From Haloferax marisrubri (GTDB lineage Archaea; Halobacteriota; Halobacteria; Halobacteriales; Haloferacaceae): 64,000 nucleotides of DNA. Made by a program: the position numbers and the translations under genes. Below, piece by piece: positions 3,841 to 56,153 of this stretch (position 1 is its first letter; every line of letters begins with the position of its first letter). The notes under the pieces were generated by a model. That model did not search any database, was not told the DNA's origin, and worked only from the letters and a program-made list of their open reading frames with translations. Location: positions 186,001-250,000 of the forward strand of contig NZ_LOPW02000005.1 of assembly GCF_001469875.2 (NCBI RefSeq), read 5' to 3'.

Positions 3841-3852
3841 TTAATTTTTATT
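3841..3852 (+). promoter_or_regulatory. TATA box for the isomerase/dehydrogenase pair
   Basis: An A/T-only 11-mer, TTAATTTTTAT, in otherwise GC-rich DNA lies about 30 nt before the ATG at 3877. This is the normal spacing for a leaderless haloarchaeal transcript. Confidence 0.65.
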
Positions 3853-3876
3853 CACTTCCTAGTATATGTGGTTGAT

Positions 3877-16514: not shown

Positions 16515-16532
16515 TACTACAACACCGGTAGT
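16515..16532 (+). promoter_or_regulatory. Degenerate TrmB-like box before the sugar-binding protein
   Basis: TACT-N7-CGGTA matches 7 of 9 fixed positions of the TACT-N7/8-GAGTA box. ACTAC-N7-GTAGT within it is a perfect inverted repeat. It is centred about 26 nt upstream of the TATA box, a position suited to activation. Confidence 0.4.
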
Positions 16533-23809: not shown

Positions 23810-24871
23810 TCAGACGATTTCGTCGCGGTTCGGAACCTCGTCGCGGCCGAGCAGAATCTCCTGTCCTTCGACGTCTTCGAGCGCGGCGACCAGCCCGCCG
23901 ACCTCGACGACGCCCTCCTCGGTCTCGATGTGGAGCGACGCGACCTCCTCCGTGTCCTCGAAGGCCGTCTCGATGACGCGCCCCTCGACCACGATGGGGT
24001 CGCCCGTCTCGATGTCGCGGCCGGAGACGGAGGCGTAGAAGTCGCCTTCTATCTCGCGGATGTCCTTGACGGCCCGGCGGATAGAGGCGTAGCGGCGCGG
24101 GAACGGCCGGCGCTTACCGTTGGCGACGATGGTCTCGGCGGTGCTCCAGAGGACGGTCCCGAAGAAGCCGCTGACGAGGAAGCCGAGCGCGGAGCGGTTG
24201 AAGATGACGCCGTAGCGGTCGCGGTCGTCGCGGAGGGCGTCTTGGGTCGCGTAGATGGAGTACTCGCCGTCGGCGACCGCGAGGACGGGCGAGGTGATGC
24301 CGCGGCGGGCGCGGGCGATGGTCGCCACGTCGAGGTAGTTGAACTCGTCCGGGTCGGGCGCGCGGGAGGCGGGCGTGACGAGCAGGTCGATGCTGACGCC
24401 GCTGTCGATGGCCGCCGCGAGGTCGTCGCGGAAGCGACGGAGCAGGTCGGGCGTCAAAGAGAGCACGAGTTCGTACTCCGCGGCCTCGATAATCTCCTCG
24501 ATGTAGCGGAGGATGGTCGACCGCGACTTGACGAGCGAGACGGCCTCGGTGTCGCGGGCGGGGGCGGTATAGCGCGCCTCCAGTTCCTCGATGAGTTCCT
24601 CCAGCGAGGTCTTGACGTTCGCGAAGGCGTCGTCGGGGTCGACCGCGACGATTTTCATCGGGCGCGACTCGCGGAGTTCGACGAGGCCGCGGTCCGACAG
24701 GCTCCGGACCGTGTCGTACACCCGCGGCTGGGGGATGCTGGTTCGGTCGGCGATTTCGCTCGCCGTCAACTGTCCGTGTTCGAGGACGGCCAGATACGCG
24801 TCTATCTCGTACTCGCCGAGGTTGAAGCGCTCACCGACTCGCTCCATGGTGAGCCGCAGTTCGTCAGCCAT
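23810..24871 (-). CDS. trmB: TrmB-family sugar-responsive transcriptional regulator
   Basis: 353 residues. The N-terminal winged helix (1-85: [50 protein letters not shown]) is the TrmB HTH. A coiled linker leads to the C-terminal effector domain (about 115-353) that binds sugars in this family. In haloarchaea TrmB is known to switch between gluconeogenesis and sugar breakdown. Start ATG 24871: 26 more residues are open upstream but the next in-frame sequence is not conserved-looking. An exact TACT-N7-GAGTA box lies just upstream, predicting autoregulation. It is convergent with the sugar-metabolism genes. Confidence 0.94.
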
Positions 24872-24904
24872 GGTCGTGACGTGTACGGCATCACCTAAAT
24901 CATT

Positions 24905-24920
24905 TACTGAAATCCGAGTA
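24905..24920 (-). promoter_or_regulatory. TrmB-binding box in the trmB promoter
   Basis: TACT-GAAATCC-GAGTA (plus-strand reading) matches the TACT-N7/8-GAGTA haloarchaeal TrmB consensus, as I recall it, at every fixed base. It is centred about 41 nt before the trmB start and just upstream of the TTTAGG TATA-like region (24893-24898). Confidence 0.7.
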
Positions 24921-25000
24921 GCACAAGATTCCGAAAACAAGTGGCACAAACGGTAGCAGGGAGACCGGCGAACGTCGCGGGACGGCGGCCGGGTCGGCGC

Positions 25001-25741
25001 TCACATGTACATTCGGTCCTCGGGAAGGTCCGCCTCGCTGTCGCGGAGGCGCTCGGCGAGTTCGGCGTAGTACTGCTGGACCTCGGCCGCGAACGACTCC
25101 AGCGGCGAGGAGTCGACGCCGAGGTCGTACACGTCGTTGGCGGCGTCGACGAGGCGGATGGCCGCCTCCACGTCGGGGACCTGCGCGTGGACGGGCGTGA
25201 CGTAGACGCCGACGCCGAGGGGCGACCCGATGCCGCGCTCGACGAGCGCCGCGTTGGTACCGTCGAAGAAGCCCCGCCCCATCGGTGGGATGTCGCTGTC
25301 GGCGAGTCGCGCCTCGCGGTAGTCGTCGGTGGCGATGTAGAACACGCGGTGTTCGTCCGGGCCGTGGGCCATCGGAATCCCCGAGAGGACGGCGAGTTCC
25401 TCGACCTGATTGCGCTCGGTCCATTCGAGGATGGCGTTGCCGAACTGGGTGCCGTGGACCGCCGGGACGAACAGTTCACCGACGAGCACGGTCACGTCGA
25501 GGTCCTCGCGGGAGAACAGGCGAGTGTGGTGTCGGGGGCGACCGTTCTCGAAGGGCGTCACCGCCGGAAGCCCCTCGACGGTGAGGTGGCCGGTCTGTTC
25601 GAGGTCGAGGTGGTCGACGATGAAGTCGACGGCCGTCAGTCCGGCGAGCCCGAACGATGAAAAGCCGCAGAGGAGCGCTCTGCTGGGCGGCGTCTCGTGG
25701 GTGATGCGGAAGTCGGGGCGGGCGCTCGTCGCGTTGACCAT
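25001..25741 (-). CDS. PAC2-family protein (proteasome assembly chaperone-like)
   Basis: 246 residues. The PAC2 layout is recognisable: ALLCGFSSFGLAGLTAVDFIVDHL near the N-terminus, VTVLVGELFVPA, LAVLSGIPMAHG and a glycine-rich GRGFFDGTNAALVERG. The C-terminal helix (AAEVQQYYAELAERL) is typical. Eukaryotic PAC2 helps build the proteasome alpha ring; the archaeal role is not established. It is transcribed towards trmB, 129 nt apart. Its divergent neighbour mscS starts 95 nt away. Confidence 0.9.
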   Translation of the reverse strand: MVNATSARPDFRITHETPPSRALLCGFSSFGLAGLTAVDFIVDHLDLEQTGHLTVEGLPAVTPFENGRPRHHTRLFSREDLDVTVLVGELFVPAVHGTQFGNAILEWTERNQVEELAVLSGIPMAHGPDEHRVFYIATDDYREARLADSDIPPMGRGFFDGTNAALVERGIGSPLGVGVYVTPVHAQVPDVEAAIRLVDAANDVYDLGVDSSPLESFAAEVQQYYAELAERLRDSEADLPEDRMYM

Positions 25742-25835
25742 GCAGATACTGCGACAGCCCGACACTTAGCCGTTCACCGCGACCGAACCCCCCGGAGTAA
25801 CAACCCTTTTTTCGCCGCTCTCCGTTGCGGTTTCC

Positions 25836-54470: not shown

Positions 54471-56153
54471 TCAGGGTAGGTCAGTTGGGGAGACGTCGAA
54501 TCGCTTGAGGAACTTCTGTACCGCCTCGTCACCCCCGACAATGGTTATTCGCTCGTCCCCGGAGAACTGCCGCTGCGGGTCGACCGAAACTGTCTGTCCG
54601 TCACCGTCCTCGATAGCGATGACGCGACAGCCGGTTCGTTCGTAGATGCGGGAGTTTCCGAGTGTCGACCCCGAAAACGGTGTGGACGGCACGCGAACGA
54701 GGCGAATCTGGCTCGCCGGCGCGAGGACGTCCTCACCTCGAAGCTCCTTTGCGACCATCCTCGCGCTCACTCGCGGGACCGAGAGGACGTAGTCGGCGCC
54801 GGCGCTGAACGCCTTCTGGGTGGCCTCTGCGTCTCCAACCCGGGTGAGGACCTCTATCTCGGGGTTGATAGACTGTGCGAGCACGGTCGTCAAGAGCGCA
54901 ATCGAATCGTCTGGGACGCCGATGATGATTGCCCCGGCGCTTTCGACCCCTGCGGCGAGCAACACTTCCCGGGCCCCTCCGTCGCCGACGATATCGACGC
55001 CCGGGCGGTCCTCGACGTCGACTGTGACGACTTCACCGCCGGACTCCTCGATGACCGACTTTGCGGCGCGACCGACTTCTCCCAACCCCACGAGCACGAA
55101 ACGCTCGTGTCCGGTGAACGACCGGGGTGGTCGGGTGAACTCGCTCAGGTTCTTGAGTGCGGCCTCCTCCCCGGACACTAACAGAACGGTGTTCGGACGG
55201 ACGACTGCGTCTGGGCTGGGTGGCAACTGTAGCTCGCCGTCGAGCCACGCACCGACGATGTTGGCACCGGTTCGCTCTCTAACCCTGGTCTCTCTGATAC
55301 TACGCCCCACGAGCTCGCTCGATTCGGAGACTGGGAGCTCCATCAGTCTCGTGTCTCCCCCGAGTTCGATGGTGTCTCGCAGTTCAGAGCTGAACGAGGC
55401 GACGGCTTTCTCTGCGAGACGGTGTCCTAAGACGCCGTGCGGTGACAGCACGGTATCTGCGCCGACGGTGCGCAGTATCTCCTCCATTCTGCTGTCGTCG
55501 GTCAGCGCGATGACGTCGATATCAGGCCGTACTCCTCGGACAGTAAGTATCGTGTTGACGTTCGCATCGCCGGCGTCGGTGATGACCGTCCGTGCAGTCT
55601 TGATGCTGGCCCGCTCAAACGTTGTCGTCGCTTGTGGAGAGCCGTGAATGGCGGCGTAGCCACGGTTTGAGAGTGATTCGGCGTCTTCCCGTGAGGACGA
55701 AATGAGCACGTAATCGATGCCAAATTCTCTGAGTTCGTCCAGGAGAATTGCAGAGTCCCGGCGGTACTCACAGATGATGACGTGGCCGTTTTTCGGGCTG
55801 AGTCGGTCGTCGAGGTTGACCTCGGCGCTGGTGAACAGGGGAATGATGATGAGACGGAGAGTGAAAAACCCGACTGCGATACCGGAAATCTGAATCAAGG
55901 CGACGAACAGGAACATCAGCGGATGGCTCCAGATGTCCGAGTCTTGCCCGTAGCCCGTGGTGGTCATCGTCTGAATGACGAACTCGAACGAGGCGAAAAT
56001 GGACTGATTGGCGCCTTCGAGCCGCGCTAGTGCGTAGTTGTATGCCACTGTGTAGAGGACGATGAGTAACACGAGCCCGGTGAGGTAGTAGATGACGTGT
56101 CGGATTCGACGGCTTGGTTCGAACCGACGAATGGACTCGGGGAGTGGCGACAT
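54471..56153 (-). CDS. Two-helix K+ channel with two TrkA/RCK modules
   Basis: 560 residues. Helices at about 20-44 and 78-105 frame the pore loop with filter TTGYGQ (65-70). Two RCK units follow, each with a Rossmann-like TrkA-N (HVIICEYRRDSAILLDEL from about 124 and FVLVGLGEVGRAAKSVIEE from about 348) and TrkA-C parts (VGRSIRETRVRERTGANIVG; GSTLGNSRIYERTGCRVIAIEDG). Such proteins gate K+ in response to nucleotides or ions, central to a salt-in halophile. The gene's GC and third-position bias are visibly lower than its neighbours. It lies beside a gene fragment, suggesting acquisition by transfer. Confidence 0.92.
   Translation of the reverse strand: MSPLPESIRRFEPSRRIRHVIYYLTGLVLLIVLYTVAYNYALARLEGANQSIFASFEFVIQTMTTTGYGQDSDIWSHPLMFLFVALIQISGIAVGFFTLRLIIIPLFTSAEVNLDDRLSPKNGHVIICEYRRDSAILLDELREFGIDYVLISSSREDAESLSNRGYAAIHGSPQATTTFERASIKTARTVITDAGDANVNTILTVRGVRPDIDVIALTDDSRMEEILRTVGADTVLSPHGVLGHRLAEKAVASFSSELRDTIELGGDTRLMELPVSESSELVGRSIRETRVRERTGANIVGAWLDGELQLPPSPDAVVRPNTVLLVSGEEAALKNLSEFTRPPRSFTGHERFVLVGLGEVGRAAKSVIEESGGEVVTVDVEDRPGVDIVGDGGAREVLLAAGVESAGAIIIGVPDDSIALLTTVLAQSINPEIEVLTRVGDAEATQKAFSAGADYVLSVPRVSARMVAKELRGEDVLAPASQIRLVRVPSTPFSGSTLGNSRIYERTGCRVIAIEDGDGQTVSVDPQRQFSGDERITIVGGDEAVQKFLKRFDVSPTDLP

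Follow-up and report, generated by a model that had tools for sequence, protein, structure and literature searches.

A conserved, predicted TrmB operator in the trmB promoter of Haloferax and its bearing on autoregulation in haloarchaea

The trmB locus

The stretch of DNA analyzed here, referred to as the window, comprises 64,000 nucleotides of Haloferax marisrubri contig NZ_LOPW02000005.1. It carries trmB and, 129 bp away, a gene of the PAC2 family; because both genes have the same orientation, the gap between them holds only the trmB start region. The features of the locus are listed below, with promoter positions counted from the A of the trmB ATG (24871).

23810..24871, minus strand: trmB, 353 aa, with an HTH domain (PF01978) and a sugar-binding domain (PF11495), from domain search
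24894..24899, minus strand: TATA-like TTTAGG, -28 to -23, from sequence
24902..24907, minus strand: BRE-like GTAAAT, -36 to -31, from sequence; three bases in common with the box
24905..24920, minus strand: predicted TrmB-type operator (the box), from sequence and conservation
24921..24924, minus strand: conserved bases that extend the distal half-site to GTGCTACTC (GTGC on the coding strand), from column conservation
24929..24936, minus strand: second conserved element, coding TTTCGGAA (TTTCGRAA-like), from column conservation and, in several families, by eye
25001..25765, minus strand: upstream gene of the PAC2 family, from domain match

The trmB product gave domain E-values of 9e-22 (PF01978) and 5e-73 (PF11495) and matches the structure of Pyrococcus furiosus TrmB (3qph, E 4e-29). 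In the alignment with 3qph, the Tyr-Asp pair that contacts DNA (YD of the HTH domain; RVYD) and the Gly and Glu of the sugar site (VGG...ED) are kept. With both domains and conserved residues for DNA contact and sugar binding, the protein fits the sugar-sensing TrmB family. There is one high-scoring TrmB copy per genome, the next best protein being about 33% identical; the genome encodes seven PF11495 proteins, one at 23810-24871 and six in other places.

A first-pass annotation, made from the sequence of the window alone, had pointed to an exact TrmB box in this promoter. The match is confirmed: TACTGAAATCCGAGTA, at 24905-24920 of the plus strand, has all nine fixed bases of TACT-N7-GAGTA and falls within the published haloarchaeal TrmB operator consensus TACT-N(7-8)-GAGTA (PMC3794607, PMC4158304). 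On the coding (minus) strand the site reads TACTCGGATTTCAGTA and occupies positions -49 to -34; its palindromic form is TACT-N8-AGTA. Only AATGA (5 bp) separates the box from the TATA-like TTTAGG, which bears out its reported placement directly upstream of the TATA-like region. The position of TTTAGG would suit a leaderless trmB transcript, and TTTA is found at about the same place in Natrialba trmB promoters. The archaeal BRE has the form RNWAAW, and the proximal half of the box overlaps a good example of it (GTAAAT). On the distal side, GTGCTACTC-N7-AGTAAA with at most one mismatch occurs in the genome only at trmB. Further upstream, the center of the TTTCGRAA-like element lies 20 bp (two helical turns) from the center of the box.

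Frequency and conservation of the box

The annotation had also stated that such a match is expected well under once per window, and this depends on how chance is estimated. Independent bases at 67.7% GC with one spacing predict 0.09 matches per window, and shuffles of the window gave no exact match. The window itself contains two exact TACT-N7-GAGTA matches, the second (55530-55545) inside a predicted ORF, and a reversed-pattern control implies about 0.4 matches per window. Since the shuffle and independent-base expectations lie below this control, they underestimate chance matches in a coding-rich genome. Genome-wide, the exact consensus had 32 hits (in about 28 places) versus 24 for the control. 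With two matches in the window and a genome count close to that of the control, an exact match by itself is weak evidence and is not decisive. The genome scan with the exact consensus thus gave little above control, and a genome scan with the extended motif showed no enrichment in number (23 hits versus 48 for the control), but ppc, gad, gapI, and pgk were among the locations of its hits. The trmB box has the top score in the window with a position weight matrix (PWM; 20.9), a value that is partly circular because the matrix was trained on trmB promoters. With a score of 17.8, TATTCACTTCCTAGTA at 3849-3864 ranks second in the window by PWM; it lies between a TATA-like sequence and a sugar isomerase/epimerase-like ORF (start at about 3878) and is identical in five other Haloferax genomes.

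We judge the site at trmB to be real from its position and comparative conservation rather than from the exact match alone. The box is kept in 11/11 named Haloferax species, 49-50 bases before the start codon. When 130 bp upstream of trmB were searched, TACT-N8/9-AGTA with at most one mismatch was present in 112 of 150 orthologous promoters versus 6% each in composition shuffles, and the exact form in 44 of 150 versus 0.25%; as orthologues, these promoters do not count as independent, and a single named list, rich in Haloferax and Halorubrum, supplies 80 of the 150. This list contributed 75/80, and the numbered families f1, f4, f7, f10, and f6 had the box in 18/20, 8/9, 2/3, 2/2, and 2/4 promoters, respectively. 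It was found in 2/2 promoters of f8, shifted to about -33 from the start, and in 3/17 and 0/9 promoters of f3 and f2. Family f9 scored 0/4 by the palindrome rule, yet the left half ACTC follows GTGCT in 4/4. The predicted operator is thus conserved at trmB across related species, as expected of an autoregulated gene.

In Halogeometricum, Halogranum, Haloquadratum, Haloprofundus, and Halorubrum, the central bases vary while TACTC (or AACTC) and AGTA are kept, and in Natrialbaceae and Halorussus the left half is kept while the right half varies (AATA, GGATA). Column conservation over 67 distinct sequences revealed two blocks, one resembling TTCCGAAA or TTTCGGAA and the other GTGC(T/A)ACTC...AGTAAA. 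In several families the proximal half, with GGATA or AATA in place of AGTA, is less well kept than the distal half-site and TTTCGRAA. The right half of the box runs into an RNWAAW match in 101 of the 112 box-bearing trmB promoters.

Boxes at other promoters

Boxes of the same shape were found at additional promoters of central carbon metabolism. Two of these genes, ppsA and gapII, had been selected in advance because they are published targets of TrmB: TACTCGCCTTCGAGTG-like boxes are present at ppsA in 14/14 Haloferax genomes and a degenerate CACT-N7-GAGTT-like box at gapII in 15/15. Two others came from the motif search, so that only their conservation counts as support: ppc (phosphoenolpyruvate carboxylase), with a TACTCGTATCCGAGTA-like box that is strong in 13 of 14 Haloferax genomes and weaker in one, and gad (gluconate-dehydratase-like), with a box in 13/13. 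In the Hfx. marisrubri genome, the boxes of ppsA, gapII, and trmB lie upstream of TATA, at distances of 35, 24, and 5 bp, whereas the ppc box follows TATA and the gad box lies on it. The box-bearing genes are right in kind, in that gluconeogenesis goes with a box upstream and PEP-consuming or glucose-catabolic functions with a box at or after TATA. No box was found at a second gad paralogue or directly upstream of the FBPase genes scanned in Haloferax; the latter genes may sit inside operons.

Three other candidates were set aside. The pgk box scored poorly in two other species compared; the conservation of the gapI box, seen in few genomes, may reflect coding, as this box extends over the start codon; and a candidate at a sugar-binding-protein gene (16583) was not upheld, a different inverted repeat being kept there. 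This repeat, ACTAC-N7-GTAGT (window 16516-16532), is located upstream of the gene, which encodes a sugar ABC transporter binding protein, and is kept in nine of ten other Haloferax genomes, the remaining one having AATAGT on the right; it looks like a candidate site for another regulator. In the gapII promoter (L250), GTTAAT-N9-ATTAAC forms an inverted repeat that lies between BRE/TATA and the TrmB-like box; both of its arms occur in most Haloferax genomes compared, and it is possibly a co-regulator site.

Regulator and sign of control

Conservation of the box and its occurrence at other central-carbon promoters make it a well-supported prediction from comparative sequence analysis that the trmB promoter contains a TrmB operator and thus that trmB is autoregulated, as the first-pass annotation proposed. 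In our assessment, the box is probably TrmB's own operator, at which binding in the absence of glucose would block TFB/TBP and limit TrmB synthesis; TrmB as the bound protein, the negative sign, and the control by glucose are what we infer from the sequences. The TrmB dimer would occupy the TACT-N8-AGTA palindrome of its own promoter when glucose is absent, and, with the proximal half-site on BRE and adjoining TATA, would exclude TFB/TBP and thereby restrain its own synthesis. When glucose is present, TrmB would be released and trmB transcription would rise.

The annotation had inferred activation from the location of the box upstream of TATA, and TrmB might indeed act on its own promoter as an activator, e.g., by recruiting TFB from directly upstream of BRE, with positive feedback in the absence of glucose. 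In the reviewed Halobacterium/Thermococcales model a box upstream of TATA goes with activation, and P. furiosus TFB-RF1, an activator beside BRE that works with TFB and is cited in the same review, offers a precedent (PMC4158304). An activator-type site, however, would lie upstream and clear of BRE and TATA, and the trmB box comes within 5 bp of TATA and shares three bases with a BRE that already fits RNWAAW; the corresponding distances to TATA are 35 bp for ppsA and 24 bp for gapII. Of these two genes, ppsA is activated by TrmB in Halobacterium salinarum and gapII in Haloarcula hispanica. In Har. hispanica, TrmB-repressed genes have BRE-overlapping motifs and activated genes have motifs further upstream, with one exception (PMC10817205). 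Activation of trmB is therefore unlikely in our view, and negative autoregulation is favored by analogy as the better prediction.

The element could also be the operator of another regulator, either a TrmB paralogue or a protein that reads TTTCGRAA, with TrmB not controlling its own gene. The seven PF11495 proteins of the genome might share the motif, a second conserved element lies beside the box, and in several families the left half is better kept than the palindrome. But the same palindrome occurs at the ppsA, gapII, ppc, and gad promoters and matches the consensus published for Halobacterium TrmB (PMC3794607, PMC4158304), and we regard this explanation as quite improbable, more so than activation. 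That the box is a functionless chance match in an AT-rich core promoter would agree with the slight genome-wide enrichment of the exact consensus (32 versus 24 hits); such an origin is hardly credible, since most of the haloarchaeal families sampled keep the box at a constant location even though its central bases change.

Distribution among haloarchaeal lineages

None of the nine f2 promoters has the box, nor do most of those in f3, among them those of genus group g27. TrmB of genome G032 (f2, genus group g24) shares 56.5% identity with two of the three g27 TrmBs, which is also the published value for VNG1451 versus HAH_1548, and the G032 reading frame permits a start that gives the published 360 aa; on these grounds, g24 is probably Halobacterium and g27 probably Haloarcula. 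Absence of the box in g27 fits the finding of no autoregulation in Har. hispanica. Extrapolation of trmB control from these genera to Haloferax is unsafe, given that no box precedes trmB in genomes fitting Halobacterium or Haloarcula and that Har. hispanica TrmB is reported not to control its own gene in vivo.

The three f3 genomes with the box are on a branch that groups with box-bearing families, a placement compatible with an early origin of the box and later losses, the root being uncertain. A midpoint-rooted trmB tree has three changes of box state with labels that scored two f3 rows as box-less, although both carry the TACT-N9-AGTA form, and gain and loss of the box are not firmly separable on this tree. 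We tentatively suggest, as a possibility somewhat short of even, that a composite operator, with TTTCGRAA two helical turns upstream of a BRE-joined TACT-N8-AGTA, is old in haloarchaea and mediates TrmB self-control, that it was lost in the Halobacterium and Haloarcula lineages, and that TTTCGRAA belongs to a partner protein. TrmB control would then have been defined in species without its feedback loop, which appears to be missing in the two best-studied TrmB relatives.

A single motif match thereby becomes a lineage prediction, i.e., TrmB feedback on trmB in Haloferacaceae, Natrialbaceae, and related haloarchaea, and no such feedback in Haloarcula, where none was seen in vivo, or in Halobacterium. 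Negative feedback would affect the response speed of the switch between gluconeogenesis and glucose use. Together, the boxes at ppsA, gapII, ppc, and gad constitute a small, position-coded predicted regulon for Haloferax.

Comparison with known TrmB systems

A study of TrmB and TbsP in Hfx. volcanii, i.e., of the same regulator in the same genus, reportedly addresses control of gapII. The status of gapII as a TrmB/TbsP target agrees with the gapII box found here, and, as TrmB data exist for this species, the trmB site may already be described in that study. H. salinarum TrmB (VNG1451C) recognizes TACT-N(7-8)-GAGTA, with the same nine fixed bases and spacing as in the present site, and the Hfx. 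marisrubri protein is 62.6% identical to G032 TrmB, which fits H. salinarum; the regulators are probably orthologous. Unlike Haloferax, the f2 genomes fitting Halobacterium lack a box in the 130 bp that precede trmB.

The regulon of Har. hispanica TrmB (HAH_1548) includes ppsA and gapII with a box upstream, as predicted for Haloferax, and the BRE overlap that is the repressive arrangement in that organism matches the trmB box described here (PMC10817205). None of the 15 ChIP peaks falls at the Har. hispanica trmB promoter, and TrmB was concluded not to regulate its own gene in vivo (PMC10817205), whereas Haloferax trmB carries the box. Autoregulation in vitro has been reported for other TrmB homologues, according to work cited in the same paper (PMC10817205). 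Although the P. furiosus TrmB operator has a spacer of 3 versus 8 here, and the sugars and target genes differ, this operator (TACT-N3-AGTA, at the malE BRE/TATA) consists of the same half-sites and is a repressor site (PMC4158304).
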